The notes under the pieces: model-generated
What the model was told of the DNA's origin: nothing
The model's input: only the letters and a program-made list of their open reading frames with translations
Databases searched by the model: none
In this document: one piece after another, positions 112 to 22,244 of the stretch
Layout of the letters: each line of letters opens with the position of its first letter
Position numbering within the stretch: the stretch's first letter is position 1
Position numbers and translations under genes: made by a program
Assembly (NCBI GenBank): GCA_024741835.1
Contig: JAENRP010000472.1
Coordinates: 1 to 26,995 of the forward strand
Length of the DNA: 26,995 nucleotides
Origin: Diplocarpon mali
Taxonomy: Eukaryota; Ascomycota; Leotiomycetes; Helotiales; Drepanopezizaceae
Direction of reading: 5' to 3'

Positions 112-540
112 TTGACTCTTAGGCCAGATCTATAAGTAGATTCCTTTAAGGAAAGTGCACTCTTTGCCTTAATATAATTAAGCGAGGATAGGGAGAATAG
201 ATAGACTCTTAAGCTAGGATTATAAGTAAAATTTGCGAAAATGACTCTTAAGCTAGGACTATAGGTAGATTATAAGGTATCTTTAAAGATAACTCTTAAA
301 CTAGGATTATAAGTGAATTTAGTAGAAATAACTCTTAGGCTAGGATCGTAAGTAGATTCTATAAATTCGCTAATAATAACTCTTAAGCTAAGATTGCAAA
401 TGAAATTTACAGAAATAACTCTTAAGCTAGGACTATAAGTAGATCTTGCTATTTCTAGGAAATCGACTCTTAAGCTAGGACTGCGAGTAGATCTTGCGGT
501 TTTATTAAAAACGACTCTTAAGCTAGGCTTGCAATTGGAA
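112..540 (+). repeat. In-frame palindromic peptide-repeat array, 9 units (copy A)
   Basis: Nine units begin with ACTCTTA-type sequence at 115, 205, 244, 292, 331, 379, 418, 466 and 514. The spacings are 90, 39, 48, 39, 48, 39, 48 and 48, all multiples of three. In the pol frame each unit reads T-L-K-L/P-G-L-Q/R-V-D followed by 4-7 variable residues. The array lies between the protease remnant and the integrase zinc finger. Similar units occur in gypsy F and in the family 3' UTR, so this is not simply a private minisatellite. Confidence 0.85.
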
Positions 541-1605
541 AATGGTAAAACCTTAAACTGCTATTACTAGTCCTTTTTAGCTGCTAATAATAAAGTATCG
601 ACTGATAATAAGCTACTAAAGCTATTAGAAGCCGAAAGCCTATTAAGGTATTAGCTAATATATAAAAGATTCGCATATCTAAGGCTAGAGAAATTAAAGG
701 GCCTGTATAAGGTCTCGACCTTAAAATAGAAGATTTAAGTACTAAAGGATCGCTTGATATGCCGAATTTGCAAGCTAATAAAACTTTAAAATCGGACGCG
801 AACTAAGCTTAGTCTATAAAAAGATTTGATACTAGCGCTAATATCTATTAATACTATTAGACTATTTACAACCTTAATTAAAGGAAATAATTAGTTTTCT
901 TAAATAGTAGATAATTCTACTTAATAGATATAGACCATTTGCGCTAAGACTAAATCTAAGCTTATAAGAAAGCTAGAAACTTAGAAAGTAATAGAAGAAC
1001 GCTAAACCTAGTTAAAGCTAATAGCTATTAGGTTTAATAACGCATTAAAGATTAAGGTAAAGCTTAACGAATAGATAAAATAAAGAGTTTATTATAAACT
1101 AATTATAATATATAAAGGTTCCTATTAGAATAGTATCGCTAAGCAAAGCATCTAATAAGCAGAGACTAACTATTGTACTTTACTATAAGATGCTGACTTA
1201 TTACTAGAATTCTAGGACCTTGCGGTTAAAGCAGACGTATACCTACGAAATAGAATAGGTAGTAGACTAATAGTCAATAGTACTTAAATATTACTATATA
1301 AGGCATATTTTAAATAGAAACTAAGCTTAAACTATATCTGCGTTTTTAAAAGCGTTTGCTACTCTTATATTAGCCTAAAGTCCTAGCCTATAGGTATAAA
1401 AAGTAAGAAGCTAATAGACTAAGGTAAAGAGTATATATTTATTAAGTATATTAAATAGATAATAAAGCAATAGATAGTATATATACTAGACCTAGGGCAA
1501 GTAATTATATCCTTAATAGTTGAGTTTAATAAATCTTAAAATAAGGAGGAGCTATTCTTAAAGCTCTATATACCTAGAGATTCGTAAGGTATACTACTTA
1601 ATAGT
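541..1605 (+). pseudogene. copia integrase region of copy A, broken
   Basis: After the array the frame runs into a GAG-pre-integrase/integrase zinc-finger remnant: a His-containing stretch now reading RFAYLRLEKLKGL (about 667-706) and a C-x2-C pair, CRIC, at 760-771. It continues through a degraded DDE core to the C-terminal copia hallmarks, an AVYLINR-like segment now reading ADVYLRNRIGSR (about 1232-1265) and a KAYF...LRVF-like segment near 1300-1350. The last recognisable part resembles the ISRDV-type copia end near 1500. Stops at Gln codons are frequent. The enzyme would join retroelement cDNA to the chromosome, but this copy cannot be translated. Confidence 0.8.
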
Positions 1606-1781
1606 AATACTATTAAGCCGAATTAATAACCCCTCTCTTTAAGCTTAAGTATATTAAGCGTACCCGCTGATCGATAACCTATTAGTCGCCTAAAGGCCGA
1701 ATAAACTATTCCTATTGTCTGCGAATTGCCTAAAGTATAAAATAACTTCGATATTATCATCCCTTTAGTTAAAGCACCTAA
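1606..1781 (+). other. Integrase-to-RT linker of copy A, left part
   Basis: This is degraded, low-complexity linker between integrase and reverse transcriptase. It is interrupted by the mini-element and resumes at 2298. Copy C carries the same stretch uninterrupted near 8170-8350. An antisense open frame here (1623-1820) is a by-product. Confidence 0.6.
1777..1781. repeat. Left target-site duplication of mini-element G (CCTAA)
   Basis: CCTAA is repeated at 2298-2302. Copy C has the unoccupied site, with RIP changes, near 8174-8190. Confidence 0.8.
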
Positions 1782-1866
1782 TGTTGTGCATAATACCGCT
1801 CGGCCAAAATGTGAATCCATACCTTAGGGCGCGTATTAGCATATTTAGCCTATTTTCTGCATAACA
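1782..1866 (-). repeat. Mini-element G, 3' LTR (minus-strand sense)
   Basis: It starts TGTTGTGCATAATACC and ends ATAACA, and matches 2213-2297 along its full length. Its outer edge keeps TG and CA, where the other copy shows TA. Confidence 0.8.
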
Positions 1867-1877
1867 CACCCCCTAGG
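1867..1877 (-). other. Polypurine tract of mini-element G
   Basis: On the minus strand this reads CCTAGGGGGTG immediately before the 3' LTR, the place and composition expected of the plus-strand primer. Confidence 0.55.
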
Positions 1878-2201
1878 TCGTCGGAAGAACAGTTTTTCCG
1901 GCGGCCTAAGTACTAGCCTAGTCTGTAGTAGCGTAGATATAGCGCATAGACCGCTAAGCCAGTAGAAAATAGGTGGTCGGAAGGGCCGGAAGACCGCAAT
2001 TTCTCCTTCGGCCATATATCGGACGGCCATCGGACGTCTTTTTACTCAAACCTATCGAAACTTCTATCGATACAGTCGAAACTGAGTATAATCATTGCCG
2101 AGAATTTGGGAAATCGGCGACTGGTAGAACTTCGAAGCGAAAGAAACGTCGGCTAAACCTTGCGCAAGAGGAATGCGAAAAGAATTATCGCTGCGCTCAT
2201 A
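1878..2201 (-). other. Interior of mini-element G, no retroelement protein
   Basis: The interior is relatively GC-rich and keeps CpA and TpG. It has several GG/CC-rich inverted stretches (GTCGGAAG, CTTCGGCC, CGGACGG). A plus-strand open frame of 83 codons (1973-2224) ends inside the second LTR. It is antisense to the element as oriented by PBS and PPT, and I recognise no family in it. The interior may be a captured host fragment or residual retroelement leader. Confidence 0.5.
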
Positions 2202-2212
2202 GGGCTTATAAC
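2202..2212 (-). other. Primer-binding site of mini-element G (half-tRNA type)
   Basis: Minus-strand GTTATAAGCCC directly abuts the LTR. Its complement contains CTTATAA, the sequence expected for the anticodon loop of a tRNA-Ile(UAU). Copies C and E carry the same core after their LTRs. Confidence 0.6.
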
Positions 2213-2297
2213 TATTATATATAATACCGCTTGGCCAAAATGTGAATCCATACCTTAGGGCGCGTACTAGCATATTTAGCCTATTTTCTGTATAACA
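2213..2297 (-). repeat. Mini-element G, 5' LTR (minus-strand sense)
   Basis: This is the 85-bp partner of 1782-1866. Its inward-facing end reads TATTATATATAATACC where the partner has TGTTGTGCATAATACC, so the differences are RIP-type transitions. Confidence 0.8.
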
Positions 2298-2302
2298 CCT
2301 AA
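2298..2302. repeat. Right target-site duplication of mini-element G (CCTAA)
   Basis: Matches 1777-1781. Confidence 0.8.
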
Positions 2303-2559
2303 GGTAAAGGATATTCCTAAAATAGGTATAAGTAATAATAAGCCTCTACTACTAGAAAGCAGTTCCTTAGATAATAAGCCTATGGAACCTATAGCTGAAC
2401 CTACGTCTTTAAAGAGGAATAAAGACTTAGAATTAAAAGACACCTTAGACAAACGCGAGTCTAAGCGTATCTAAGCCATAATAGCGCATAGGATCTATAA
2501 GTTCGAACTTCAATAGAGCTTTAATAAAGATAATACATTCCTAGCCATTAAGAAGATAA
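2303..2559 (+). other. Integrase-to-RT linker of copy A, right part
   Basis: This continues the linker interrupted by G and leads into the copia RT domain. It is Lys/Glu/Asp-rich in the pol frame and shows no recognised domain. Confidence 0.55.
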
Positions 2560-3250
2560 TGAAAATCTCTTTTCCAAAGATATATAATAAAGCTATTAAT
2601 AATCTAAAGAATAAAGTAGTATAAAGTAAAGCAATCTAAAAGGAGATAAGCTCTTTTATTGCAAATAGTATATAGATAGAGAAACTAACACTAAAGGATA
2701 TGAACCTAGTATTAATAAAGTGGGTCTTTATAATCAAGATATATGCAAATAGGACCTTAGAACGTTATAAGGCAAGGCTTATAGCTAAGGGCTTTTCCTA
2801 ATAGTATAAAAAAGACTACTTCGACATATTTGTGCCAATAGTTCGCATAGATACCCTTTACATATTTATAGTAATAGTAGCTGCTAAGGACCTTAAATGC
2901 AAATAGTACAATATTAAAAATGCATTTACTAAAGCAACTATAAAGGAATGGATTTTTCTCTCCTAACCTAATAGTATTCCTATACGCGCTAGCCACTCTC
3001 TCTATATACTTTATAGTATCTATAGGCTTAAATAATCAGCCTATAATTAGAATCTCTTATATAGCTCTACTCTAGTAGAAATAGGATTTATTTAAAGCCT
3101 AATTAACCTTTGTCTATTTACCTATACTAAGCGTAGAATCAAGTTGCTATTATATATTAATAATATTACTATAGCTGCGAAAATAACCACTTAATTAGAT
3201 TGGTTCTTTATAATAATTTAAAACGTTTTAATACCAAGGATCTAAGGGGA
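2560..3250 (+). pseudogene. copia reverse transcriptase of copy A, broken
   Basis: The frame shows the order typical of RVT_2. It begins KWVFIIKIYANRTLERYKAR (about 2719-2778) and LIAKGFS (2779-2799). Next come DYFDIFVPIVRIDTL (about 2815-2860), AAKDLKCK followed by YNIKNAF (2880-2935), and a SLYGLKQS-like segment (about 3019-3042). The catalytic Y-x-D-D reads YINN at 3153-3164, as expected if two GAT codons after T became AAT. Several Gln codons are now stops. The enzyme copied element RNA to cDNA; this copy is inactive. Confidence 0.9.
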
Positions 3251-3409
3251 ATTTATAAGATCCTTAGTATCTGCGTCATAAGGAACCGCTCTACTTAAGA
3301 ACTTTAGTTAGATTAAGAATAGTATATTAAGAAGATCCTAGATTAAATAGGACTTTCCGCTTATACTCCTAACTTTAAGCCAAAGCGTACTCCAATTAAA
3401 GGAAAGTAT

Positions 3410-4140
3410 AATAAGTTAGAGCCTACTAATAAAAATAAGCAAAGAGGAGATCTAAAAAAGTACTAATAGGATATTAAAGCGATTATATATACTATAGTAT
3501 ATATAAGACTAGATATCGCCTTTATTACTAAGTAACTTAGTTAGAACCTAAAGGATCTAACAATTTAATATAAAAATGCAATTAAGCGACTTAAAAGGTA
3601 CCTTCGATCAATAATCATATAGAAGGTAAGATATAGATTAATAAAATATATAAGTGCAAAGCTTAAGGTATATACCAATTCCAACTAGGCAAATATAAAA
3701 GGTTAAAAAAGTATATCTAAAAGCGTAGTAGTACTATATAGCAGACCTATATTGTAAGGAAGTAGGAAGTAGAAATTAATAGCTACCGCAAGCACTAAGG
3801 CCGAATATATATTAATATTATCAAATTGCAAGTAAGGATTATAGATCGCTTAAGTTTTAAAAGATATAGGTTTTACTAAATATATTAGATAAGATAGGAA
3901 CTATATTAATCTTTAAACAGATAATATAAGGGCGATTGCACTTATAAAGAATCTATACTTATATAAGCAATTAAAATATATTAATATTACTTACTACTTT
4001 ATTTATAACCTTATTATAAAGAATAAGTTATTAATTACCTATATCCTAACTAATTAAATAGTAGTAGATAGATTTATAAAGCTATTAAAGATAGTTATAA
4101 AGTTTAAAGTATTTAAAGATATACTAAAGTTGCAAAAGAT
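3410..4140 (+). pseudogene. copia RNase H domain of copy A, broken
   Basis: After a degraded connection domain the frame carries DIKAIIYTIVYIRLDIAFIT (about 3472-3531), matching the copia Y..AIGSLMY...TRPDIAF block. Downstream are RLKRYLR, TASTKAEYILIL (about 3785-3823; the A-E-Y of the RNase H core), and a DNIRAIALIKN stretch (about 3921-3952) equivalent to DNQSAIALAKN. The LKYINITYYFI segment (about 3970-4004) corresponds to the T-K-H-I-D-I-x-Y-H-F-I signature, with His residues lost to Tyr or Asn. Sense reading fades after about 4140, where pol should end. Confidence 0.85.
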
Positions 4141-4453
4141 AGTAAGGACTTAGCAGGCTTAAGGACGACTCCTAGGCCCGCTTTGCAAATTAGGTTACGT
4201 AATCTTATAAAGGAAAGTTTTTAAATTGACTCCTAGGCCTAGACCGCGAGTTAAGTCACGTAGTCTTATAAAGGAACGCTTTTGGAAATTTAACTCCTAG
4301 TCCCGCTTTGCAAATAGGATTAGTGATTTTAATAAAAGTTGCTATTAATTAATTGTTTTTAATTTAAAGAGATACTTAAGAGTTAGATTAGCGTAAAAGG
4401 ATAATTATTATTTTCCTAACTATAGGTCAATCGAAGTAAGGTTTAAGTAAGGA
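4141..4453 (+). other. 3' untranslated region of copy A with palindrome repeats
   Basis: About 310 bp lies between the end of pol and the LTR. It contains three palindrome units in a tandem of about 62 bp. An A/G-rich tract reading AAGTAAGGA sits directly before the LTR and is the likely polypurine tract. Confidence 0.65.
4168..4315 (+). repeat. Three dispersed palindrome units in the 3' UTR of copy A
   Basis: Units of the ACTCCTAGG...GAGT type start at 4168, 4229 and 4293, with spacings of 61 and 64. They are separated by a repeated spacer containing TCTTATAAAGGAA. Unlike the pol arrays, the spacing here is not a multiple of three. The same trio occurs in copy C at 6157-6309. Confidence 0.75.
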
Positions 4454-4648
4454 TATTAAGATAGGTAATATAGCTATTACTCTAATATATTATTATATAA
4501 CCCTACTACTTAATTAGTAGGATATTAATATATATATAGCTATAAGGAAGAAAGGGGTAACCTTCCTTCCTTAACTCTTACTAATATATCAATTATCGAC
4601 CTTTAGAAGCCTCCTTTACCTACTGCGCCGACTCACTTAAGCTCAATA
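4454..4648 (+). repeat. 3' LTR of copy A (195 bp)
   Basis: It runs from TATTAAGATAGG to CTCAATA, the RIP-altered form of TG...CA. It aligns over its full 195 bp with the two LTRs of copy C (5824-6018 and 11834-12028, opposite strand). Sequence after 4648 is host copy H. Confidence 0.85.
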
Positions 4649-5375
4649 GTCTACTACCTATTCTATTTTGCAAATATGCGTCTGCCTTAATCGCAAGGTC
4701 CTAGAATTCTAGTAGTAGGTCAGCATCTTGCAATAGAGCGCAATAGTCAGTCTCTACTTACTAGATGCTTCGCTTAGTAATACTATTCTAGTAGGAACCT
4801 TTATATATTACAATTAGTTTATAATAAACTCCTTATTTTGCCTATTTATTAAGCTTTGCCTTAATATTTAATATATTATCAGACCTAATAGCTATTAGCT
4901 TTAATTAGGTCTAGCATTCCTTTATCACTTTCTAAGTTTCTAGCTTTTCTATAAGCTTAGATTTGGTCTTAGCGTAAATAGTCTATATCTGCTAAGTGGA
5001 ATTATCTACTATTTAAAAAAACTAATTATTTCTTCTAATTAAGGTTATAAATAGTCTAATAGTATTAATAGATATTAGCGCTAGTATCGAATCTTTCTAT
5101 AGATTAAGCTTAATTTGCGTTTGATTTCGAAGTTTTATTAGCTTATAAATTCGGCATATTAAGCGATCCTTTAGTACTTAGATCTTCTATTTAAAGGTCA
5201 AGACCTTATATAAGCCCTTCAATTTCTCTAGCCTTAGATATATAAATCTTTTATATATTAACTAATACCTTAATAGGCTTTCGGCTTTTAATAGCTTTAG
5301 TAGCCTATTATTAGTTAATACTTTATTATTAGCAGCTAAAAAGGATTAGTAATAGCAGTTTAAGGTTTTACTATT
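4649..5375 (-). pseudogene. copia integrase remnant of host copy H
   Basis: This is the minus-strand equivalent of copy A positions about 541-1287. It includes the zinc-finger C-x2-C neighbourhood near 5145-5160 and the DDE-core remnant. It is truncated at 4649 by copy A. RIP stops are scattered throughout. Confidence 0.75.
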
Positions 5376-5379
5376 TTCC

Positions 5380-5804
5380 AGTTGTAAGCTTGGCTTAAGA
5401 GTCGTTTTCCTAGAAATAGTAAGATCTACTCGCGGTCCTAGCTTAAGAGTCGTCTTTAATAAATTCGCGAATTTTACTTATAGTCCTGGCCTAAGAGTCA
5501 TTTCTACAAATTTCACTTATAATCCTAGCTTAAGAGTTATTATTAATAAATCTATAGAATCCACTTATAGTCTTAGCCTAAGAGTTATTTCTATTAAATT
5601 CACTTATGATTTTAGCTTAAGAGTCACCTTTAAAGATATCTTATAATCTACTTATAATCCTGGTTTAAGAGTTATTTTTACAAATTTTACTTGCGATCCT
5701 AGCTTAAGAGTCCATCTATTCTCCTTATCCTTACTTAATTATATTAAGGTAAAGAGTGCACTTTCCTTAAAGGAATCTACTTATAAGTCTAGCCTAAGAG
5801 TCAA
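5380..5804 (-). repeat. In-frame palindromic peptide-repeat array, 9 units (host copy H)
   Basis: Unit ends (GAGT on the plus strand) fall at 5402, 5450, 5498, 5537, 5585, 5624, 5672, 5711 and 5801. The spacings are 48, 48, 39, 48, 39, 48, 39 and 90, identical to copy A and all multiples of three. Confidence 0.85.
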
Positions 5805-5818
5805 TTTCTATAATATCA

Positions 5819-5823
5819 CTTTT
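5819..5823. repeat. Left target-site duplication of copy C (CTTTT)
   Basis: Repeated at 12029-12033. The interrupted sequence matches the uninterrupted region at 9905-9915. Confidence 0.75.
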
Positions 5824-6018
5824 TATTAAGCTTAAGTAAGTCGGCGCAGTAGGTAAAGGAGGCTTCTAAAGGTCGATGGTCGATATATTAGTAAGAGTTA
5901 AGGAAGGAAGGTTACCCCTTTCTTCCCTATAGCTATATATATATCAATATCCTATTAACTAAGCAGTAGGGTCATATAATAATACATTAGAGTAATAGCT
6001 ATATCACCTATCTCAATA
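5824..6018 (-). repeat. 3' LTR of copy C (195 bp)
   Basis: On the plus strand it begins TATTAAGCTTAAG and ends CTCAATA. It pairs with 11834-12028. Its outer (left) part keeps CpG/CpA sites such as TCGGCGCAGTAGG that are mutated in the partner. An AAGTAAGGG purine tract lies just inside it on the minus strand. Confidence 0.85.
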
Positions 6019-6335
6019 CCCTTACTTAGACCTTATTCCGATTAACCTATAGTTAGGAAAATAATAACTATCCTTTTATACTAATCCAACTCTTAAGTAT
6101 CTCTTTAAATTAAAAACAATCAATTAATAGCAACCTCTATTAAAATCACCAATCCTACTTGCAAGGTAGGACTAGGAGTCAAATTTCCTAAAAGCGTTCC
6201 TTTATAAAACCATATGACTTAACTCGCAATCTAGGCCTAGGAGTCGATCTAAAGAAAAACTTTCCTTTATAAGACTATATAACCTAACTCGCAAGGCAGG
6301 CCTAGGAGTCGTCCTTAAGCTTACTAAGCCCCTAC
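6019..6335 (-). other. 3' UTR of copy C
   Basis: Non-coding stretch between RNase H and the 3' LTR. It contains the purine tract next to 6018 and the palindrome trio; no gene is seen. Confidence 0.65.
6157..6309 (-). repeat. Three dispersed palindrome units in the 3' UTR of copy C
   Basis: Units lie at about 6157-6179, 6223-6244 and 6287-6309. The last is among the best kept, running from ACTCGCAAGG to CCTAGGAGT. Spacers share TTCCTTTATAA. It mirrors 4168-4315 in copy A. Confidence 0.75.
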
Positions 6336-7065
6336 TATCTTTTATAACCCTAGTATATCTTTAAACGCTTTAAACTTTACAACTATCTTTAATAGCTTTA
6401 TAAATCCATCTGCTACTATTTAATCAATTAGGATATAGGTAATTAATAACTTATTCTTTGCAATAAGGTCGCAGATAAAGTAGTAAGTAATATTAATATA
6501 TTTCGATCGCTTATATAAATATAGATTCTTTATAAGTATAATTGCCTTTATATTATCTGCTTAAAGATTAATATAGTTCCTATCTTATCTAATATATTTA
6601 GTAAAACCTATATCTTTTAAAACTTAAGCGATCTATAATCCTTACTTGCAATTTAATAATATTAATATATATTCGGCCTTAGTACTTATAATAGCTACTA
6701 ATTTCTACTTCCTACTTTCCTATAATATAAGTCTGCTATATAGCACTACTACGCTTCTAAATATACTTTTCTAACCTTTTATATTTACCTAATTAGAATC
6801 GGTATATACCTTAAGCTTTACACTTATATATTCTATTAGTCTATATCTCACCTTTTATATAATTATCAATTGAAGGTATCTTTTAAATCGCTTAACTGCA
6901 TTCTTATATCGAATTATCAGATCTTTTAAGTTCTGACTAAGTTGCTTAATAATAAAGGCGATATCTAGTCTTATATATACTATAATATACATAATTGCTC
7001 TAATATCCTATTAGTACTTTTTCAGATCTCCTCTTTGCTTATTTTCATTAGCAGGCTCTAACTTA
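6336..7065 (-). pseudogene. copia RNase H domain of copy C, broken
   Basis: Reverse complement of the RNase H blocks described for copy A (3410-4140). It includes the A-E-Y segment near 6650-6690 and the TRPDIAF-like block near 6945-6990. Stops replace Gln codons and the catalytic carboxylates are partly lost. Confidence 0.8.
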
Positions 7066-7224
7066 TTATACTTTCCTTTAATTAGAGTATACTTTAGCTT
7101 AAAGTTAGAAGTATAAGCAAAGAGTCCTATTTAATCTAGGATCTTCTTAATATACTACTCTTAGTCTAACTAGAGTTCTTAAGTAAAGCAGTTCCTTATA
7201 ATGCAAATGCTAAGGATCTTATAA

Positions 7225-7920
7225 ATTCCCTTTAGATCCTTAGTATTAAAACGTTTTCGAATTATTATAAAGAACTAATCCAATTGAGTAATTATCTTTA
7301 TAGCTATAGCAATATTATTAATATATAGTAGCAACTTAATTCTACGCTTAATATAGGTAAATAGATAAGGGTTAGCTAAGCTTTAAACAAATCCCATTTC
7401 TATTAAAGTAAAGCTATATAAGAGGTTCTAATTATAGGCTGATTATTTAAGCCTATAAATACTATAGAATATACAAAAAGAGTGGCTAGCGTATATAGGA
7501 ATACTATTAGGTTAAGAGAGAAAAATCCATTCCTTTATAATCGCTTTAGTAAATGCATTTTTAATATTGTACTATTTGCATTCAAAGTCCTTAGCAGCTA
7601 CTATTACTATAAATATATAAAGGGTATCTATACAAACTATCGATGCAAATATATTAAAGTAGTCTTCTTCATACTATTAAGAAAAGCCCTTAGCTATAAG
7701 CCTTACCTTATAATATTCTAAGGTCCTATCTATATATATTTTAATTATAAAGACCCACTTTATTAATACTAGGTTCATATCCTTTAGCATTAGTTCCTCT
7801 ATTTATATACCATTTATAATAAGAGAGCTTATCTCCTCTTAGATTGCCTTATTTTATACTGCTCTATTCTCTAGGTTATTAATAGCTTTATTATATATCT
7901 TTAGAAAAGAGATTTTTATT
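7225..7920 (-). pseudogene. copia reverse transcriptase of copy C, broken
   Basis: Minus-strand RVT_2 remnant collinear with 2560-3250 of copy A (coordinates sum to about 10478). The Y-x-D-D box is YINN at 7314-7325. An 79-codon plus-strand open frame (7482-7721) is the antisense shadow of this domain; its twin lies antisense to copy A's RT, so its conservation only reflects the shared parent sequence. Confidence 0.85.
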
Positions 7921-8360
7921 GCCCTTCTAGCAGCTAGGAACGCATTATCTTTATCGAAGCTCTATTAAAGTTCAAGCTTATAGATCCTATATGCTATTAT
8001 AGCCTAGATACGCTTAGACTCTCGTTTATCTAAGGTATCTTCTGGTTCTAGGTCTCTATTCCTCTTTAAAGATGTAGGTTTAGCTATAGGTTCTATAGGC
8101 TTGCCATTTAAGGAACCGCTTTCTAATAGTAGAGGCTTGTTATTACTTATACTTGTTTTAAGAATATCCTTTACTATAAGTGCTTTAATTAAAAGGATAA
8201 TAATATCGAAGTTATTCTATACTTTAAGCAGTTCGCAGACGATAGGAATAGTCTATTCGGCCTTTAGGCAACTAGTAGGTCGTCGATTAATAGGTATACT
8301 TAATATACCTAAGCTTAAAGAGAGGGGTTATTAGTTCGGCTTAATAGTATTACTATTAAG
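7921..8360 (-). other. RT-to-integrase linker of copy C
   Basis: Low-complexity linker without a recognised domain. It contains the empty insertion site of mini-element G near 8174-8190. The plus-strand open frame 8101-8334 is an antisense by-product. Confidence 0.55.
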
Positions 8361-9415
8361 TAGTATACCTTGCGAATCTTTAGGTATATAGAGCTTTAAG
8401 GATAGCTCCTTCTTATTTTAAGATTTATTAAACTCAACTACTAAGGATATGATTACTTACCCTAGGTCTAGCGCGTATACTATCTATTGCTTTATTATCT
8501 ATTTAATATACTTAATAAATATATACTCTTTACCTTAGTCTATTAGCTTCTTACTCTTTATACCTACGGGCTAGGACTTTAGGCTAATATAGGAGTAGCA
8601 GACGCTTTTAAAGATATAGATATGATTTAAGCTTAGTTTCTATTTAAAATATGCCTTATATAGTAATATTCGGGTGCTTTTAACTATTAGTCTACTACTT
8701 ATTTTATTTTACAAATATATATCTACTTTAACTGCAAGGTCCTAGAATTCTAATAGCAGGTTAGCATTTTATAATAAAGCGTAATAGTCAGTCTCTACTT
8801 ACTAAATGCTTCGCTTAGTAATGCTATCTTAGTAGGAACCTTTATATATTATAATTAGTTTATAATAAACTCCTTATTTTACCTATTTATTAAGCTTTTC
8901 TTTAATCTTTAATATATTATTAGACCTAATAGCTATTAGCTTTAATTAGGTCTAGCGTTCTTCTATTACTTTTTAAGTTTCTAGCTTTTCTATAAGCTTA
9001 GATTTGGTCTTAATGCAAATAATCTATATTTATTAAGTGGAATTATTTACTATTTAAGAAAACTAATTATTTCCTTTAATTAAGGTTATAAATAGTCTAA
9101 TAGTATTAATAGATATTAGTGCTAGTATTGAATCTTTCTATAGATTAAGCTTAGTTTGCGTTTGATTTTAAAGCTTTATTAGCTTGCAAATTTAGTATAT
9201 TAGGTAATCCTTTAATACTTAGATCTTCTGTTTTAGGATTAAGACCTTATATAGGCCCCTTAATTTCTTTAGCCTTAAATATGCGAATCTTCTATATATT
9301 AGCTAATACTTTAATAGGCTTTTAGCTTTTAATAGCTTTAATAGCTTATTATTAGTTGATACTTTATCATTAGCGGCTAAAAAGGATTAGTAATAGCAGT
9401 TTAAGGTTTTGCTAT
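8361..9415 (-). pseudogene. copia integrase region of copy C, broken
   Basis: This mirrors 541-1605 of copy A, with the C-terminal AVYLINR-like block near 8690-8730 and the zinc-finger neighbourhood near 9180-9300. It is read on the minus strand and interrupted by RIP stops. It abuts the palindromic array in the pol frame. Confidence 0.8.
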
Positions 9416-9419
9416 TTTC

Positions 9420-9893
9420 CAATTGCAAGCCTAGCTTAAGAGTTGTTTTTAATAAAACCGCAAGATCTACTTACAGTCTTGGCTTAAGAGTCGATTTCTT
9501 AAAAATGGCAAGATCTACTTACGGTCCCGGCTTAAGAGTCGTCTTTGATAAATTCGCGAGTTTCATTTGCAATCTTAGCCTAAGAGTCATTTTTACAAAT
9601 TTTACTTATAATCCTAGCCTAAGAGTTATTATTAGCAAATTTGCAAAATCTACTTGCGGTCTTAGCTTAAGAGTCATTTCTATTAAATTCACTTATAATC
9701 CTAGCTTAAGAGTTATCTTTAAAGATACCTTATAATCTACCTATAGTTTTAGCTTAAGAGTCATTTTCGTAAATTTTACTTATGATCCTAGCTTAAAAGA
9801 CCATCTATTCTCCCTATCCTTACTTAATTATATTAGGGTAAAGAGTGCACTTTCCTTAAAAGAACCTATTTATAGGTCTGGCCTAGGAGTCAA
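9420..9893 (-). repeat. In-frame palindromic peptide-repeat array, 10 units (copy C)
   Basis: Unit ends fall at 9443, 9491, 9539, 9587, 9626, 9674, 9713, 9761, 9800 (degenerate) and 9890. The spacings are 48, 48, 48, 39, 48, 39, 48, 39 and 90. Compared with copies A and H there is exactly one extra 48-bp unit at the integrase side. Because units are near-palindromic, both strands stay open; the plus strand (9409-9735) reads a series of S-L-R-V motifs, but the copia sense strand is minus. Confidence 0.85.
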
Positions 9894-12028: not shown

Positions 12029-12033
12029 CTTTT
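12029..12033. repeat. Right target-site duplication of copy C (CTTTT)
   Basis: Matches 5819-5823. Confidence 0.75.
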
Positions 12034-12305: not shown

Positions 12306-12315
12306 GTTATAAGCC
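12306..12315 (+). other. Primer-binding site of element E
   Basis: GTTATAAGCC directly follows the LTR. It is the same core as in copies C and G. Confidence 0.55.
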
Positions 12316-12331
12316 TTATAAGCACTTTAAT

Positions 12332-14040
12332 ATGCTTTCTCTTCGCATGCAATCGGCTAAAGGGCCCTTCGAGCTCCTGACCGACTTTTTAAGTATTTAT
12401 AATAACTTAAAGGACCTTTATTTTTAATTAACAAATCTCCATTTTCCGATCGAACCTTATTTATAAACCTTATTTATATATCCAACCTTTTTTATTAGAC
12501 TCTATTTAATATATCTAACTCTTTAAGTATCTTTAAGCCTTGCTTTAATACTTCTACCTCTTAAGTAAAGTAGTTTAATAAATATATATTCTTCGCTAAG
12601 CTTTATAATATTATTATTTTTGCCGATCTAAGACTCTTATTTAAGTCAATTATAGAGACTGAGCCTTAAGCTCCCTTTATATAAGAGCTTAAGGAACTGG
12701 AAACGGCTAACCTTTGCATAGTATACGCAAGGTTGTATAAAGAGTATATAGCGACTCTATCCGAATAGATTTACGCCCGCTTTCTCCTAGGAGATCTGTC
12801 AAAGGCTCCTCTTCTATAGGCTTTTTATAAGGATATTAAGGATGAATATAAAATCCTAATAAAGGAGCACTATATATGCAAGGAAACTTAAAAGACCTAA
12901 CGCAAATACTATAAGCTACTCTTAGAATAGGTCTTTAAGACTATTGATAGAACGCTTTTAGCTTCTGCGATAGCTTAAGTACAAATCCAAGCTGAGAAGC
13001 TCTCTTCCTTAATACCTGATAGAGATACTCCTATAAGTGGAACTATTGCTAACGACCCGCATACCAATTTAGTAAATTAGCAACTCTTACTCTAAGGCCT
13101 AGTATCTATTTTAAAGCGTGATATTACGCCTTTTAATAAGGCTATTTAGTCTTAGATAAGGCTTTAATACCGCGATATACTATGCTAAGGCAAAACTAGG
13201 AGAACTAATACTTAGCAGTAGATCTAGGAGTAGTAGGAGGCGTACTGCCTAGTAGAATAATACAGTCTTCCTAAGATTAAAGGGAGACTAAGAGTTACTG
13301 ACTTTTTAGACTTAGTTATAGTAAAGATCAATCCGATTTAAGCGACTCGCTTAAAGGAGGAAATTATTACTAATAAGTAAATAGGAACCTTATATAAGTA
13401 CGACTTAATGCAGTTGAGCTGTGCCTTAGTAGGCATTAAATCCAATAGAGCAATTGATAATAAAGGGCTAGTAGTTTTTGCTACTTAAGAGTCTCTCCTA
13501 AATGCTAAGACCCCTTCGCAGGCTCTAGCGAGCAGCTTCTGAAATCGCTCCATAAGCTTTAAAAGGGAGATTAGGCCTAAGTGCCCTTATAAAGGCTTTA
13601 AAAATCACTATTAGAAGCCCTAGGACTATTAGAAACTATTATATACTATAGATAGGCGTAAGGAAAATATAAAGGTACTCTCCTTGCAAAAGGAGGTCCT
13701 ATAAATACAAAAGGCATTAAATGCAAGAGACTAATTCAAAGGTCTTTAAGTATAGCTTAAGGAGAATGATATTACGATAATAGCGATTGATAAATTCAAA
13801 GGAAAGGCTTTAGCCTTTAAGGAGGACGGTTTAGGTAATAAAAGGAAGAACTTACTAGTCTTTATAGTAATAGATCCCTTTGCCTTCGACGCTTTTAAAG
13901 AATCGTTTAATATCTACTACCTCTTTAAGCTAGAATGCTACCCGCTCTCTTTAAGTACGCTCTTTAACAATTGCGCGGCCACTTATATTATTAATTTAAA
14001 GGATTTACTTATCGCAAGCACCTTTAAGCCTTCTGGCGAC
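12332..14040 (+). pseudogene. copia Gag and protease region of element E, broken
   Basis: Two in-frame ATGs (12332, 12347) open a frame beginning MLSLRMQSAKGPFELL. Gag sequence is recognisable by continuity to about 13540, with a Ser/Gln-rich helical middle (near 12950-13010). A zinc-finger remnant CPYKGFKNHYQKP, lacking its second Cys, lies near 13580-13620. The protease follows: a D-x-G-A-T-like site now reading NNCAATYIIN near 13966-13996. Stops are mainly TAG/TAA at Gln positions. Frame continuity was read by eye, so small frameshifts may be missed. Confidence 0.75.
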
Positions 14041-15791
14041 TTATAGCAATATATTGAAGCAAGTACCTTGAGACTCCTAATTATTAGGAAAGGTAATAGA
14101 TATATGGCGGACTCTCTTCTATAGTATAACGGCTCTCCTATAGGGATAACGCTTTGCAATATTGCTATTATAGAAGAGTTTACTATTAATATTATCTTAA
14201 AGAGGCTTTTTATAGATAAGGGTTTTTAATACTCTAGAGTAGACCTTACTTTACGCTCTAAGAGTATTAAAGATTCTATAAAGCGAGCTTAATTAAAGCA
14301 TTGCTATAATCTCATTTTCTTTAAATATAAGCCTATTAACTATTTAGATCTCCTAAATATGCTTTAATATAACTTCTCTGCCTTAATAGCATTCCTTATA
14401 GCTAAGACGACGCTTTATAATAGGTTCTAGTCTAGCTATATACCTACTAAGGTGTAGGATAATAACGCGTATACTTAGTACCTTCGCGCTGGCTACCTAG
14501 GCGCAGAGGCTCTCTAAGTGCTAGTCAAGTGCGCTAAGGGAGTAAAGATTAAGGGAATACAGAGGCTAGAGTGCCCTATATGCGCAATAGCGTCTATTAA
14601 GCAAGTTATTTCTCGCGCTACCTTTAAGAACCGATCTTTAAAGCCCTTCTTTAGGATCTTCTAAAATCTCTTTAACTTTTTAAACAACTTATATAATAGT
14701 TATTTATAAGTTCTTTTAATTAAGGACAAGTATAGTAGTATACTTTAGACATTCCTATTAAGATCAAAGGGCAGAGATATAATTATAAAGGTCCTTTAGG
14801 CCTTTAAAGCGTAGGTAAAACGCTAATATAGGCTTTCAATTTGCAAGATTAGATAAGATAATAATACTTTAATAATCTCCTTAAAGGAAGACTCTCTTAT
14901 AAAGTACCAAAGATAGGTAAAAGAGGAGGGAATCGATTTAAAGCTTACTCCTACTTATATATATCAACCTAATAAAGGCGCAAAGCGAGTAGGAAGGGAG
15001 TTAATTAAACGCTCTATTAAAATGAGGATCTACGCCAGGCTTCTAGCAAGCCTTTGGCTAAAGGTTATAAAGGCTGCTATATACCTTTATAATATCTCCT
15101 TACTCGCTAGGAAGAAGATGATCTTATTAAATAAGGCTCTTTATAATTGGTTTAAGTAGTATTTTCAATTCTATAAGCTGCTACTTATTAAGCAGATAAT
15201 AGCAAGCTTAAAGCCCGATTAGAGTTGCATTTATGCATATAGTGCTTGCGTATACCCTTTAATTAGAGAGAGGAAGGCAAGGAGGGACCGCCGAACTTTT
15301 AAAATTAAACTATAAGGGTACCTAGGTTATTTAATTAGATATATTACCTTTAAGATTTATAGAATCTAGGTTCCTATACTCTAGTAAGTAATAATAACTT
15401 ATAATATCGAATTCGATAAGTCTCTCTTCTATAGTCTAAAAGCTAAGCGCGCAAATCCTATATCGCACTAGGAACTTAAGACGACCTTTTAATTAATTAG
15501 AGAAGGAGAGGGAGCTTAGAACGCTAAGTTCAAAGGCATTTTCAAGGAATTAGAGCTTATCGCAAGGCCGAACGCAATCGCTGCAGAAGAAGCCGCTATA
15601 TAAGAAGAGCCTATATTATAGACTAACGCTACTTTATAGCCTTTAACTAATAATATAAAAGGCCTTAACTTAAATCCAAATCCGAGAGACCTGCTTGGAA
15701 ACTCAAGGGTGGAAGCAAGCGAATTAGAAGCCACTTCGCCAGTCTTTAAGAAGGCAAATGGCGACCAGAGCTTAGGGGTGATAATTCCTTA
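14041..15791 (+). pseudogene. copia integrase of element E, broken and split from RT by F
   Basis: The end of the protease region leads into the integrase zinc finger (YLRAGYLGAEAL near 14480-14516, then ECPICA with Cys at 14572-14574 and 14581-14583). The DDE core includes IRQDNNTLI (near 14850-14876) and EEGIDLKLTP (near 14925-14955). An IKMRIYARLLASLWLKV block (near 15018-15070) and an AAIYLYNIS segment (near 15073-15100) follow. These match the fungal copia type in which the element carries KEEGI-x-x-ELT-P and A-x-LW. The frame stays open to F's insertion. The antisense open frame 15516-15734 is a shadow. Confidence 0.85.
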
Positions 15792-15796
15792 TAAAG
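15792..15796. repeat. Left target-site duplication of gypsy F (TAAAG)
   Basis: Repeated at 22834-22838. Confidence 0.9.
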
Positions 15797-16071
15797 TGTT
15801 ACGGCCGCATCACGTGCACGATTCATGTGCACGGTTGTGCACGGTTATATTACGTGTCTATTATATGTCGAAGTCAGGTGCACGCTAAGGTAGCAAGGTG
15901 GCTGGATCATGTGCGCGCTAGTGAAGCACTTGTACTTATTCTAAAGGAGTTCTACTAAAGACTCTCTCTTCTTTTTCATCTTTTCTTCTCAATTATATAG
16001 CGTACCTCTTAAGGTAATATAGTTAGCGTTCGATTCTCGCCCTACTATATACTCGAGAGCTAGTTGTAATA
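15797..16071 (+). repeat. 5' LTR of gypsy F (275 bp)
   Basis: The first 90 bp are clean, with TG and CA kept (for example CATGTGCACGG). The last 75 bp are mutated and end TTGTAATA. A CT-rich stretch at about 15963-15990 and a GTTCGATTC motif at 16028-16036 lie within it. Confidence 0.92.
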
Positions 16072-17009
16072 TAAGAAAAGATCACTTAACCTTTGCTAAA
16101 AAGCTTAATATCTACCCCTTTTAGAATTATCACTTCGAATTGCCTTAAGCAACTCGATCTCGATTCTCCTACTACAAACTACCTTAAGCAACTTGTATAT
16201 AGCGCTTAGATTCTACTGATCTAGTTTTTAGAGAAAGCTGAATAACAACCTTCGAATATAAGATCAGCTTGTTTTTTCGACCCCTTATATACTCTATTTT
16301 GCAAATAGAGATTCACCTTTAATTTCAATTCGAAAAAAAAAATTATTCACTATGCTCTCGCTTCGCTAGCGTAGGCTGCTGCCTAGAGCAGTATAATAAC
16401 TTTTCTCTTTTTAACTCTCTCCCTCTCTTATAAACACTTTATACTATATCTACCTATACTTATCGATAACTCTCCTTTACTCTTTGAAGCCTCTCACTCC
16501 TTTAAAACCCTTAAATATAACTCGACTCTTTAAAAAACCCTCCTTGCGAATAAGTCATCGACCTTCTTTATACTCCCTATCGACCTATACTTGTCGACAA
16601 CTCTCCTTATACTCTTCGAAGCTCCTTATACTCTTCAAAGCCCCTTACTCCTTCCTTTAAAATACTTAGGTACGAAACTAGGAGACCTATACCTATATAT
16701 ACCATTAGAGACTAGGTCAACTTTAGTAAAGTGATAAGCTTTGGATCCTCGGACCCTACTTCCCTAGATTTGCATTGCACCCTTAGACAACCTTATTGCA
16801 ACTCCTAATTAGTAAAGAGACATGATCCTGAAGTAAAACCTTCTTTCTTAAGATCTATAAACCTTTAATACCTTAATATATATTCTATTAAAAGGCTTTA
16901 AGAATGTATATAGCTCTGCCTATATTAATCTTCCCCCTTTTAAATAGGTCACTATTTAGCATTAGGTCCCTTTAGATTAAACCAGATAATATAGAGAGAG
17001 TTAGTACTT
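16072..17009 (+). other. 5' leader of gypsy F
   Basis: About 940 bp without a recognised gene. It is pyrimidine-rich. It contains an imperfect direct duplication (CCTATACTT(A/G)TCGA(T/C)AACTCT near 16452 and 16583), a run of A at about 16333-16341, and a CGCTAGCG-bearing segment with a CTGC...GCAG stem near 16345-16390. No confident primer-binding site was found right after the LTR. Confidence 0.6.
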
Positions 17010-18370
17010 ATGACCTCTAATCTTATACCACTTAAGAGAAGTAAAAGGTTAACCGCACCCCTATTACTAGGCCTTACTGCCACTAGTTCTACAGGCCTTA
17101 CTACCAACCCTAGTCCTAGAGATATTCCTCCTTTTAAGCCTACTTAAGAAGAAACCTCCCTTAATATCGATTTTACTCTTAGGCCTAAACTGCAAGTAGA
17201 TTTTCGAAATACTCTTCTTTTATTAATTAAAGTTAAGGAAGAACCGACGTCTACCTTTACTATATCTGCCCCTCTCTTTTCAACTACTTAATAGGCCGAA
17301 ATCGCGAACCTTATTAGCGCTGCTATAGCCGCTGCTCTTTAAAATAATACTACTGCCCCTTCTTTCCTAAGTGCTAGCCTTTAAAACACTCAGTCCCTTA
17401 CCGCCGACTTATTGCCTCCCTTAGACTACTACCTCTTAATTATCTGACTTTTAATCCTAGCCGTCGACTCTTATCAAATTAAGTACCTTTAAACCTATTT
17501 TAGCAACCACTAAGGCGAAATTACCTATAACGCTTAAAAGATAGCTATAAAGGTATTTATTTAAAAGTACTTAAGCAACTTTACTTTAAAAGAGGACTAA
17601 ATTACTACCTACTTTAAGTATATAATAGGTAAAGCTTAAAACTTAATCTTATAATATATAAATCCTATCTTTACTAATAAGTTTATATATACTACTAATA
17701 TCCTTAGGGTCTTAGATTAAAGGTTCTTTAACTATAATTATATTTAATCTACTAAGCTTAAATATAATAGGCTAACTATAGGTTTAATATTATATAATAA
17801 GTTCCAATCTAAGTTCGTTACTCTTACTATAGCTAGTAAAATCGATTAATCTTACTAATTTGATAATATTTATAAAAAGGTCTCCTTAGCTTTAAAGAAC
17901 GACCTTTAAGTAAAGAAGTATAAAATAAATAATAATTATACTACTTTAAATGAGTTCTTAGCTATTGCGAACCGCAAGGCTTATAATATTAAGTAAGAAG
18001 AGGCCTATAGCGCTTGATGAGTTACCTTTGCTATTGCATTCTCCCCTTCGAAGGACCGCGTCCTTGGCATACTAAAAAGGGAGTTATAAAGACCTATAGC
18101 TATAGCTACTTCCCTAGCTCCCCGTACTCGTTCCCCTTTGCTAGCGGCCTATTGAGAAAGGTCTACCAGCCTAAAGCTGTCGTCTAGTCTTTGCTATAAT
18201 TGCAAAGCCCTTGGTCACTATGCGATAGACTGCCTTAAGCTAAAGAAGCAAGGCGAGTTTATAATAGCTAAAGTTGAAATAGAAAACGACCTATTATTAA
18301 GAAACTGCTAAGCTATAGTAAAGACTCTTACTATAATATAGTTTATAATTTATAAAAAGACTTAGATTTT
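17010..18370 (+). pseudogene. gypsy F Gag, broken
   Basis: An ATG at 17010 opens a frame beginning MTSNLIPLKRSKRLT. It is interrupted only by TAA/TAG/TGA at expected Gln, Trp or Arg sites. It contains one palindrome unit in frame (D-F-T-L-R-P-K-L-Q-V-D, 17169-17201), an Ala-rich stretch near 17320-17340, and capsid-like sequence. A complete CCHC zinc knuckle CYNCKALGHYAIDC lies at 18192-18233. Gag would coat the RNA. The start is chosen because it is the first ATG after the leader and keeps frame with the knuckle as far as I could follow. Confidence 0.8.
17169..17201 (+). repeat. Palindrome unit inside gypsy F gag
   Basis: ACTCTTAGGCCTAAACTGCAAGT starts at 17175, exactly 55 codons after the gag ATG. 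It reads T-L-R-P-K-L-Q-V, the same peptide as the copia array. Confidence 0.75.
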
Positions 18371-18379
18371 GATTCCTAC

Positions 18380-18930
18380 TTATTAATAGGCGGCCGCCAG
18401 TTCTTAATTCTTATAGAACTAGCTTAAAATAGATCATTTATTAAAACAGTTGCCTATATTAATAGTAGAGCTAATATTTTTAGTATTATTAAGACGTCTT
18501 TAGTATATTAGCTCTTTTAAAGACTTAGGGTGAAATTTATTAAACTGCCTAAACCAATTACCCCTATTAGCTATAATAGCTTTAAGGGAGAAACTATTCG
18601 ATTTGCCATTTTACTTACCTTTATAATCGATAGGCGATAAATAAACTTCCCTTTCTTAATTATAAGCTTAAAAGCAACTGACGTTTTAATTAATAGGAAG
18701 TTCCTAAAGGACTATGACCTTAAATAATCCTACGGAAAGGGGAAAAATAGTATCTCCTAGCTTAAGGATATGCCTATTATCTCCTACTTTAATTAATGCA
18801 TATTAATCGATCTCTTGCGGCCAACTAAACCTCTAATAGCCTAGTAAGACATCAATTATCGAGCAGCTATAATAGACGTTAAGGATAAAGACTTAAGAAT
18901 GGCCTAAGCCTAGCTCTTAGTACTAGTAAG
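18380..18930 (+). pseudogene. gypsy F protease region, broken
   Basis: A retropepsin-like segment TVAYINSRANIFSII has N-S-R at 18461-18469 where D-S-G is expected. Two TGA/TGG to TAA/TAG-type changes (AATAGTAGA from GATAGTGGA after T) explain the loss. A hydrophobic I-x-F-P-F-L-I-I strand (near 18645-18670) and a KATDVLINRKFLKDYDL segment, equivalent to the D-x-I-L-G-x-x-W-L motif, follow near 18680-18720. Confidence 0.75.
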
Positions 18931-18940
18931 TAATAACTCG

Positions 18941-19020
18941 AATTCTACTCCTAGTCCTAGCCTGCGAGTGAAAACTGCAAACTTGAATTCCACTTTTAGT
19001 CCTGGCCTATAAATGGCCTT
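18941..19020 (+). repeat. Two palindrome units between gypsy F protease and RT
   Basis: Units start at 18947 (ACTCCTAGTCCTAGCCTGCG) and 18992, 45 bp apart, a multiple of three. They read N-S-T-P-S-P-S-L-R-V and N-S-T-F-S-P-G-L. Confidence 0.75.
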
Positions 19021-19469
19021 TTGCAAACTTAGGAATAGTAGTTTCTTTAAAGACTTAAAAAGAGATCTGAACTATATAAAGAAGGCCTTGCTAAGAGTAC
19101 TAGACCCTTTGCTCCCTCTCTTAATAAAGAGAAACGATCCTTAGAAGATAGCTTACCAAATTAGCTTAATCTTAGCCTTAGTAATTAGCGCTCTCTACTA
19201 CTACTTTATAACTAAAGTAAAAAGAGCTATATAAACTTAAGAACTAGCGCTTAAAGAGTTTATATTTATAAGCTCTATTTATAATCTAGATTAAGAAATC
19301 AATCGCTAAGAATCGGCTAGGCAAGCTGAAATTAGCTCCTTTAGTCTTAGTTCGGCACTATAAGCTAAGTATAAGAGCAACGACAAGCTAATAGATTAGA
19401 AGCTCCTACCTTAGTATATTGAATTTAAGAATGTTTTCAATTGCTAGGCCTCCGATTAGCTGCCGAAAC

Positions 19470-20110
19470 CCAGGCTAGGGGTAGATTATAAAATCGAGCT
19501 AATAAGCGAGAATAACTTAATAATCGAGCCCCTTTGCCGCTTTATTAACAAATAGCTCTTAAAGGTCAAGAGCTATATTCTTAAGAACCTATACAAAGGA
19601 TTTATTAAAGCTTTGAGTTTCCCTTAGGCAGCCCTAATCCTTTTTATTAGAAAAGCTAATAGCTTCTTATATCTATGCGTCAATTACCGGAAACTGAATG
19701 CCTTAATAAAGAAAGACCCTTACCCGATTCCCCTTATCGATAAGATAATAGTATATATATCGAAAGCTTATGTTTTTATAAAAATCGATATATAATAAGC
19801 TTTCTACCATATCTGTATATTAGCTAATGCTAAGGACCTAACTACATTCTGCATGTATTATAGGACCTATAAATACAAGGTTTTACTATTCGGACTAACA
19901 AATAGGCCTACTACCTTTTAAAGGTTTATTAATAATATTCTCCTTAACTACTTTAACAATTTCTGCTTTACCTACTTAAATAATATTCTAATCTATTTAA
20001 AAAACTCCCTTAACTATAAGATTTATATTAAGAAGATCTTAAGAATTCTCTAATGCTATAGCCTTTAAGTAGATATTAAGAAAAGCGAGTTTAGAGTTAC
20101 TAAGACTAAG
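19470..20110 (+). pseudogene. gypsy F reverse transcriptase, broken
   Basis: The frame shows the RVT_1 series of gypsy elements: RLGVDYKIEL (near 19473-19502), CVNYRKLNALIKKDPYPIP (near 19678-19733), KIDI then AFYHI (near 19780-19812), and TTFCMYYRTYKYKVLLFGLT (near 19839-19900). The catalytic Y-L-D-D now reads YLNN at 19973-19984, from GAT to AAT after T or A. KKSEF and FLGF (near 20082-20122) close the palm and thumb. Inactive by loss of both catalytic Asp. Confidence 0.92.
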
Positions 20111-20199
20111 TTCCTAGGGTTTATTATTAGAGTTTACAGAATTAAGGTAGACCTTAATAAGGTCTTAGTTATTTAAAAGTAAAAATACGCTAAGAATAT

Positions 20200-20790
20200 A
20201 TATAGTATATAGAGTTTCCTAGGGTTTTATAACTTCTATTAAAGGTTTATTAAAGGCTATAGTTATATCTGCCGACCTTTAATAGCTCTTATAGGAAACG
20301 TCCCTTTTAATTTTAATAACGCTTATAAAGAAGCTTAAAAAGCTTTGCGCTTAAGCCTTTAAATAACCCCGATCTTATGCTACTATTACCCTTAGAAGCA
20401 GATAAGGCTTAAGATTAACGCCTCTGATAGCGTAGTCGCTAGCGTACTCTCCTAACTCTAGGAAGACGATAACTACCACCTAATCGGGTACTTTTCGAAG
20501 ACTATAAATAACGCCGAGCTAAACTACCCTATTTATAATAAGGAGCTCCTAGCGATTTTTAAATCGTTCTACTAATATAAGGCAGAGCTACTTAAGGCCT
20601 AGAAAACCATATATATATATATAGATCATAAAGCCCTTAAATACTTTATAACAACTAAGGACTTAATAGCCTAATAGGCTCGCTAAGCGGAGTTCTTTGC
20701 TAATTTCAACTTCCTTATCATATACTAAATAAGTATAATAAATACGCTAGCTAATACACTCTCCTATCAAGATCAGGAGCTAACCCCTCT
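20200..20790 (+). pseudogene. gypsy F RNase H domain, broken
   Basis: The connection segment FLGFYNFYQRFI-like (near 20216-20255) leads to LKINASDSVVASVLSQ (near 20408-20455), equivalent to I-D-A-S-D-x-A-x-G-x-V-L-S-Q with D to N at the first catalytic site. IGYFSKTINNAELNYPIYNK (near 20485-20545) matches the F-x-S-K-x-L-x-x-A-E-x-N-Y-x-x-x-x-K-E-L-L block. IYIDHKALKYFIT (near 20612-20655) is the D-H-x-x-L region. Confidence 0.9.
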
Positions 20791-20878
20791 TAAGGCTAAG
20801 AAATGAGCTTTACGCCACTAGCAGCTCTTGCCTAATGATAAGCTCTCTATAGAAGTACTTGCTACTAGAAACGATTCC

Positions 20879-20901
20879 ACTCCTAGGCCTAGCCTACAAG
20901 T
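20879..20901 (+). repeat. Palindrome unit between gypsy F RNase H and integrase
   Basis: ACTCCTAGGCCTAGCCTACA, closing AGT, reads S-T-P-R-P-S-L-Q-V in the pol frame. This copy shows both arms clearly: ACTC/AGT and AGGC/GCCT around a CTA loop. Confidence 0.75.
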
Positions 20902-20939
20902 GACGATTGTGCCAATCGCACTAATAGAAGCACCTGCCG

Positions 20940-22240: not shown

Positions 22241-22244
22241 AAAG

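Follow-up and report, generated by a model that had tools for sequence, protein, structure and literature searches.

The window analysed here comprises the 26,995 nucleotides of contig JAENRP010000472.1 (positions 1 to 26,995, forward strand) from the fungus Diplocarpon mali (assembly GCA_024741835.1; 49.37 Mb, 676 contigs), and its subject is a short palindromic unit that recurs within long terminal repeat (LTR) retrotransposons. In what follows, L numbers denote loci and C numbers contigs, the window being contig C472. An initial annotation of the window had reported a recurring palindrome, and units were recovered at every place that it named (pattern at up to 6 mismatches combined with flank clustering, with some array end units read directly from the sequence). 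The recurrence is real: the exact pattern of that annotation, at up to 3 mismatches, gave 16 matches in the window against 0.11 expected, and none of 100 shuffles reached 16.

The first of three copies of a copia element (copia A) carries an array on the plus strand (115..540), with its first unit at 115 and the others from 205 at a spacing of 39 or 48 bp, in the frame that begins with ACT. Three more units, 61-65 bp apart and without frame preference, lie on the same strand in its 3' untranslated region (3' UTR; 4168..4315). Copy 2 has an inverted array on the minus strand (5380..5804, units 5380 to 5779) and three minus-strand units in the 3' UTR (6157..6309, at 6157, 6222 and 6287). The array of copy 3 is also inverted (9420..9893, minus strand, final unit at 9868). 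Since the 5380-5804 and 9420-9893 arrays are both on the minus strand, the orientation of the unit within the copia element is constant. In the gypsy element of the window (gypsy F), a single plus-strand unit in frame ACT (17175..17197) lies in a region assigned to gag by position only. Three further units are hosted by a plus-strand part spanning protease, reverse transcriptase (RT), ribonuclease H (RNaseH) and integrase (18371..21073), which the database protein P0169 matches at 47% identity (tblastn) and which holds 48 internal stop codons (1 TGA, 18 TAG and 29 TAA). Two of these units, both on the plus strand, occupy the protease-RT linker (18947..18969, frame ACT, and 18992..19014, 45 bp past the first), and the third the RNaseH-integrase linker (20879..20901, plus strand, frame ACT). 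A second protein, P0121, matches 19745-22555 at 67% (tblastn). Element E (about 12.1-15.8 kb) yielded no match when 6 mismatches were allowed, in agreement with the initial annotation, which had found no unit there. The window is 32% GC and none of its stop-to-stop frames reaches 150 codons, in line with what C-to-T decay of elements would leave, a decay that probably reflects repeat-induced point mutation. At 25370-26130, these otherwise AT-rich mutated repeats are interrupted by GC-rich sequence in which GGC and AGC triplets are frequent.

The unit had been described as about 23 bp long, which fits its core but not the whole of the conserved module. A profile over flank clusters, symmetrised over both strands, gave RANTYN-ACTCSYRGGCCNGGCCYRSGAGT-NRANTY, about 35 bp, with conservation dropping 6 bases beyond the 23-mer on both sides. 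Each arm has two conserved blocks, ACTC and GGCC, with a variable stretch in between, in coding and non-coding sites alike, and the symmetry of the arms is imperfect (7-11 of 11 pairs matched in 20 cluster representatives). Conservation at the silent positions 3 and 21 (pooled) is 93% across coding and non-coding clusters, which indicates that the recurring thing is DNA. Among the loci examined, 1 of 191 exact arms had no partner, and that one was cut by the end of its locus; at 1 mismatch, 14 of 312 arms were without a partner against 9 in a reversed control, which suggests no more than chance. Separated arms that might form the ends of a larger transposon gave no convincing case in these loci, to which the search for them was confined. 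A hairpin as the selected feature was rejected: the variable arm positions show no covariation, and shuffled arms give more matches at pairs 5/19 and 6/18 than the real ones, so the hairpin is not what is kept. When eight sequences were folded as RNA, those from L012, L036 and L048 were matched by 1, 4 and 14 of 200 shuffles and the other five by 31 to 95 of 200.

The palindrome is dispersed through the genome: the symmetric pattern at up to 2 mismatches occurs at 1314 places in the assembly, and the reversed control at none. Likewise, ACTCNTAGGCCTAGNCTGCGAGT at up to 3 mismatches has 1167 plus-strand and 1162 minus-strand matches (control, 1 and 2). Eight 10-kb stretches of gene-rich DNA held no match at up to 5 mismatches, where area alone would predict only a few. 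The exact symmetric pattern was absent from a collection of prokaryote genomes, and its single match in IMG/VR, on a contig of 70% GC, was taken as chance. A total of 170 sites (first loci and window) fell into 25 flank clusters; five single-site clusters of weak matches (17, 18, 20, 21 and 24, one of them in the gene-rich L027) were dropped, and the 20 kept became 17 after merging an array pair (0/8) and two paralogous pairs (4/16 and 12/15). Their contexts are the gag region, protease-RT and RNaseH-integrase sites of gypsy F, the array and 3' UTR of copia A, gag-protease and integrase-RT sites of a second copia family (copia B), a second gypsy-like element with a long extra open reading frame (ORF), and non-coding or unassigned repeats. 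The hosts thus include two copia and two gypsy families, so the unit is not an internal repeat of one family, nor is it confined to descendants of the two families in which it had been noticed. Because the first loci were picked partly by matches, 59 further stretches (20 and 39) picked by the palindrome alone are informative, and they brought few new contexts. Nineteen of the 20 fell in multi-member clusters, with L034 forming single-site clusters 22 and 23, and 38 of the 39 matched known clusters, L108 on one side only; L105 and L034 have their flanks in common, and an alignment of L118 with L108 and L009 gives 66%. The LTR-retrotransposon contexts, together with a nuclear gene beside a site in L009 (a 493-codon ORF, 100% identical over 99% to a Diplocarpon coronariae U3 snoRNP protein and 90-92% to that of D. 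rosae), place the unit outside mitochondrial DNA. One of the non-coding repeats (cluster 13; L042, L046, L047 and others) carries the palindrome together with several AAGGGGTGATTTTTT stretches, and the same bases flank a copia B site. Runs of N, which may be assembly gaps, occur near palindromes in L013 (after 5802) and L105 (from about 112). The available text of a genome paper on D. coronariae puts repeats at 34% (LTR/Copia at 20.7%, Ty3 at 5.7%), and the word stem palindrom is nowhere in its main text (PMC11527701).

Reading frames were assigned to clusters from stop density in all frames over 240 bases on each side. Fourteen clusters have a coding frame (clearest in 6, 7, 11, 14 and 16, weaker in 2 and 5), and in 13 of them the reading frame of the palindrome is set by the first base of ACTC (10 of 11 once clusters are merged; P = 1.3e-4 if frames are taken as equal, 1.1e-3 if each is weighted by its stop-free share). 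Cluster 2 is in this frame also in database proteins. Clusters 1, 10 and 13 have no frame, and clusters 19, 22 and 23, with one member each, stood outside the count. The exception is cluster 14 (L012:992, an RNaseH-integrase site), which is in the next frame but within an open frame (L-T-V-L-A-C). The bias that the initial annotation proposed to test for is therefore present, and the palindrome does tolerate translation; its statement that all coding copies share one frame held at the sites of the window and failed at L012:992. From the first base of ACTC, the shared frame gives T-x-x-P-x-L/P-x-V, an octapeptide unit that is single or tandem with a period of 13, 15, 16 or 18 residues and whose residues 2, 3, 6 and 7 vary even within one array (L035). 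Among 80 sampled strand variants, 80 were free of stops in frame 0, 65 in frame 1 and 46 in frame 2; this openness of frame 0 fits tolerance, yet it does not fully explain the bias. In-frame sites come in both orientations: relative to the commoner form, those at the copia B gag-protease junction and at L012:3689 are reversed. Array spacings also differ by context: all 43 coding spacings (39, 45, 48, 54, 87 or 96) are multiples of 3, against none of the 21 in 3' UTR arrays (61, 64 or 65), in both cases among copies that share ancestry and are not independent. A distance of 121 (5 times, from a weak 6-mismatch flank match to the first unit in later loci) was not counted as array spacing.

The host assignments vary in their basis. 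The gypsy F pol matches Ty3-type proteins with RT, RNaseH and integrase domains. Among the best 150 of 1082 matches, a copia reverse transcriptase domain (RVT_2, above cut-off) begins about 220 bases past the right flank of the copia B site, on the same strand, at 12 places; in copia A, RVT_2 ends about 850-870 bases ahead of the 3' UTR unit, on the same strand, in C19, C33, C149 and C155 (also best 150 of 1082). One copia A piece matched RVT_2 at E 7e-4 and a piece of the L012 element matched RT_RNaseH at E 2e-4, both below the Pfam cut-off. Four gypsy pol proteins did not match L012 at 1e-5 by tblastn, and we take this element to be a gypsy partly from a general likeness. The gag and protease assignments are presumed from position or from familiar motifs, a motif in the case of the copia B gag-protease site. 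No Pfam family was above cut-off in the first 10 stop-to-stop pieces or in 10 further pieces, and a protein search with a copia B piece returned nothing at E 10.

Other gypsy elements of the same genome do without the unit. A sister lineage of gypsy F (L098/L099, on C239 and C235) is without a match at 6 mismatches in the 2.75 kb examined of each, gag being outside these stretches, and in protein alignment it is 14 residues shorter at the RNaseH-integrase linker, including the octapeptide, and 24 shorter at the protease-RT linker. A third gypsy (L097) has no unit in 2.9 kb; this copy (C74:104000-106900) has three stop codons in its matched part and is 49% GC. Within gypsy F itself, none of the 40 copies scored (best 40 of 190) is missing the RNaseH-integrase unit. 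The number of units at a gypsy F site varies, with other copies holding 2 or 3 (flank-to-flank gaps of 68 or 113 bases). At L035:202-359, the RNaseH-integrase site holds four tandem 45-bp units with differing palindrome variants; two of the spacers differ by one base, and the last one is different. Two candidate empty sites were set aside, C86 because it retains one unit and L105 because the stretch that would hold its second palindrome is N and unreadable. Among 25 aligned proteins of 120 listed gypsy proteins, the octapeptide is in the RNaseH-integrase linker only of P0121 and P0122, both from D. coronariae; this linker is variable throughout the 25, and P0192 ends inside it. A loose octapeptide pattern, which can match by chance, picked out P0121, P0122 and P0151 (all D. 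coronariae) and P0169 from the 120. Since nothing scored in this genome (best 50 of 871) is more than 61% identical to P0169, that protein is probably from another genome. Its TREPGPRV is an exact translation of the L048 palindrome. In the protease-RT linker this peptide follows the conserved helix instead of preceding it, at a point where gypsy F and P0192 lack any such peptide.

In the gypsy-like element of L012 (L012:3000-10000, plus strand), the integrase is followed by a very long extra open frame. This frame is built from two paralogous halves in tandem, each of about 1000 residues, which share 29% identity over about 1060 residues (E about 1e-82); no Pfam family was above cut-off in five pieces of it. 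L012 carries eight sites, and one more lies past the ORF in L013 and L019. The seven palindromes of the long ORF all have the ACTC frame; three positions are occupied in both halves, whereas only the second half has the site at 7790. L019 is a shorter, chimeric copy with a single half: it goes from L012 835-5074 to L012 9017-10000, which unites the left part of the first half with the right part of the second, and its switch lies at a palindrome edge (L019:4841). This breakpoint shows that units can act as crossover points.

We give about an even chance to the reading that the unit is a small palindromic insert gained in frame more than once by retrotransposons and tolerated in translation. 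It draws on the copy number, the many contexts, the frame bias, the multiple-of-3 spacing confined to coding arrays, the absence from the sister lineage and the one breakpoint at a palindrome edge. In this scenario, a quasi-palindromic module of about 35 bp with its 23-bp core would have entered LTR retrotransposons of this fungal lineage several times, long ago, between protein domains, in other coding parts and in untranslated regions. Coding insertions would keep the frame, either strand giving a stop-free octapeptide from ACTC. A resident unit would then be copied along with its element and duplicated locally into arrays whose length shifts by whole units (45, 48 or 39 bp); it could serve as a crossover point between elements and would decay with its host, mainly by transitions. 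As the mover, one could picture either template switching between co-packaged retrotransposon RNAs or a non-autonomous DNA element, each of which would fit. The reading supposes that gain, not loss, lies behind the absences, that linkers are occupied because extra residues are tolerated there, and that the unit itself was what got inserted, each of which seems probable.

Several results weigh against it. There is no empty site in gypsy F or copia B among the best 40 of 190, 40 of 175 and 40 of 177 candidates, the set of 190 being that of the gypsy F RNaseH-integrase site (in the sets of 175 and 177, many copies are two separate matches with a unit or array between them). Homologues without the unit, which the initial annotation's reading calls for, do exist at the linkers of the sister lineage, but no base-exact empty/filled pair was found, as that lineage has diverged and has other indels around the sites. 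No target-site duplication was found: the RANTY on the left is unlike that on the right at most sites, and both seem to belong to the unit. The match to P0169, probably outside this genome, is one of eight residues, known as peptide only. Three matching positions in the L012 halves at 29% identity sit better with long-standing constraint or repeated arrival than with neutral tolerance, and such long retention is the strongest point that speaks for a selected function. No recent hop of the unit alone was seen, since none of the 59 palindrome-picked stretches had a flank context seen once. The initial annotation had called the palindrome mobile or gene-converting; repeated in-frame gain is what remains as the best reading, without sign of present-day mobility in those 59 stretches. 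Conversion likewise left no trace at the one site tested (40 copies), where the unit changes much as its flanks do (per-site transitions 0.146 in the palindrome vs 0.131 in the flanks, transversions 0.011 vs 0.007).

On another reading, the unit might be a putative binding site, maintained by selection, for a DNA-binding protein that acts as a dimer and is supplied by the elements or the host, perhaps with an anti-silencing or regulatory role. Different families would share the site through dependence on the same protein, and it would act as DNA in coding and untranslated places alike. The ACTC and GGCC blocks kept in each arm around a variable middle, the pairing of the arms, the lack of covariation that a protein site, unlike a hairpin, predicts, and the positions that persist between the L012 halves all agree with this. 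There is also a precedent: in the part of the source available, the VANC targets of Arabidopsis VANDAL transposons are sequence-specific motifs in transposons that are often tandem repeats, although those of VANC21 lie in non-coding regions (PMC5735166), whereas the unit here is largely coding. We nevertheless consider a binding site unlikely, because many copies lie within coding regions, the frame bias and multiple-of-3 spacing mean that translation also shapes position, and the same genome has gypsy lineages without the unit in their pol linkers. Translation could matter more directly if the octapeptide were a functional part, such as a protease-processing site or a flexible joint, selected at polyprotein junctions. 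The joints it occupies would suit such a role (protease-RT and RNaseH-integrase in gypsy F; integrase-RT, with the array just ahead of RVT_2, and, by a familiar motif, gag-protease in copia B), as would the one frame of most coding sites. Peptide selection as the sole cause was, however, rejected in view of the conserved silent positions, and we hold a functional octapeptide to be highly improbable: the L012-type RNaseH-integrase site uses another frame, 3' UTR and other non-coding copies keep the same DNA, four of the eight residues vary even inside the L035 array, and the sister lineage manages without the octapeptide.

It is also conceivable that the unit as such was never inserted. Recombination between elements, with the palindrome as the place of crossover, would then have spread an ancient copy or a few of them. 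The clear breakpoint at a palindrome edge between the paralogous halves is of the type expected, AAGGGGTGATTT flanks the left side of both a copia B site and a non-coding repeat, and array spacers are alike at two gypsy F sites (clusters 2 and 3). Yet of 190 cluster pairs, flank similarity was above the null threshold in 5 over 14 bases and 3 over 20 bases (longer comparisons reach the next array unit), and in-frame sites exist in both orientations, so that we regard spread by recombination as a rather poor prospect. Each of these three alternatives accounts for some of the observations, and repeated in-frame gain of a tolerated palindrome is the best reading.

Among known systems, the closest by analogy are the Rickettsia palindromic elements (RPE), to which the initial annotation had compared the unit. 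Homologous genes without the insert exist for RPE, and homologues without the unit exist here too, though not base-exact. The excerpts available describe RPE, and similar Wolbachia elements, as palindromic repeats in frame within unrelated ORFs (PMC10969869, PMC2996958); the present unit is also a palindromic (imperfect) inverted repeat in frame in unrelated ORFs, with 10 of 11 merged coding sites in one frame and the eleventh in another open frame. The comparison holds as analogy but not as membership, since RPE are about 150 bp long and lie in bacterial genes (PMC10969869), whereas the unit is about 35 bp, fungal and nuclear, and found in repeated contexts that are mostly retrotransposons. 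Yeast mitochondrial GC clusters are similar in being short GC-rich units, often palindromic, scattered in AT-rich DNA, but in the text available they are organellar and mainly intergenic (PMC5558958), unlike nuclear units largely within retrotransposon coding regions. PARCEL repeats are coding, have imperfect dyad symmetry, form tandem arrays and have a mobile-element link; as excerpted, they are 25-residue amphipathic tandem repeats (PMC2996958), while the octapeptide unit also occurs in single copies. Miniature inverted-repeat transposable elements are likewise small, gene-less inverted-repeat units with many copies, but the present unit is much shorter, has no target-site duplication that we could find and has no known parent transposon. 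In-frame protein-coding palindromes have been reported from bacteria and an archaeon, according to the parts available of two papers (PMC2996958, PMC10969869). Word searches of titles and abstract openings of open-licence papers, which can miss reports, found none of such a palindrome common to unrelated LTR retrotransposons in a eukaryotic nucleus.

A stronger form of the insertion reading, which we put forward tentatively and as somewhat doubtful, is that the unit is a hyperparasite of LTR retrotransposons: a mobile palindrome, non-autonomous and specialised on these hosts, that enters them in frame, often at interdomain joints, gives a stop-free peptide from either strand in one frame and multiplies as it rides along. 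With many copies in one genome and sister lineages that lack the unit, its gain, frame and position are directly testable across Diplocarpon strains and species. If the insertion reading is true, this would be an element living inside other elements, and its sites would amount to a natural test of which polyprotein joints accept a foreign peptide.

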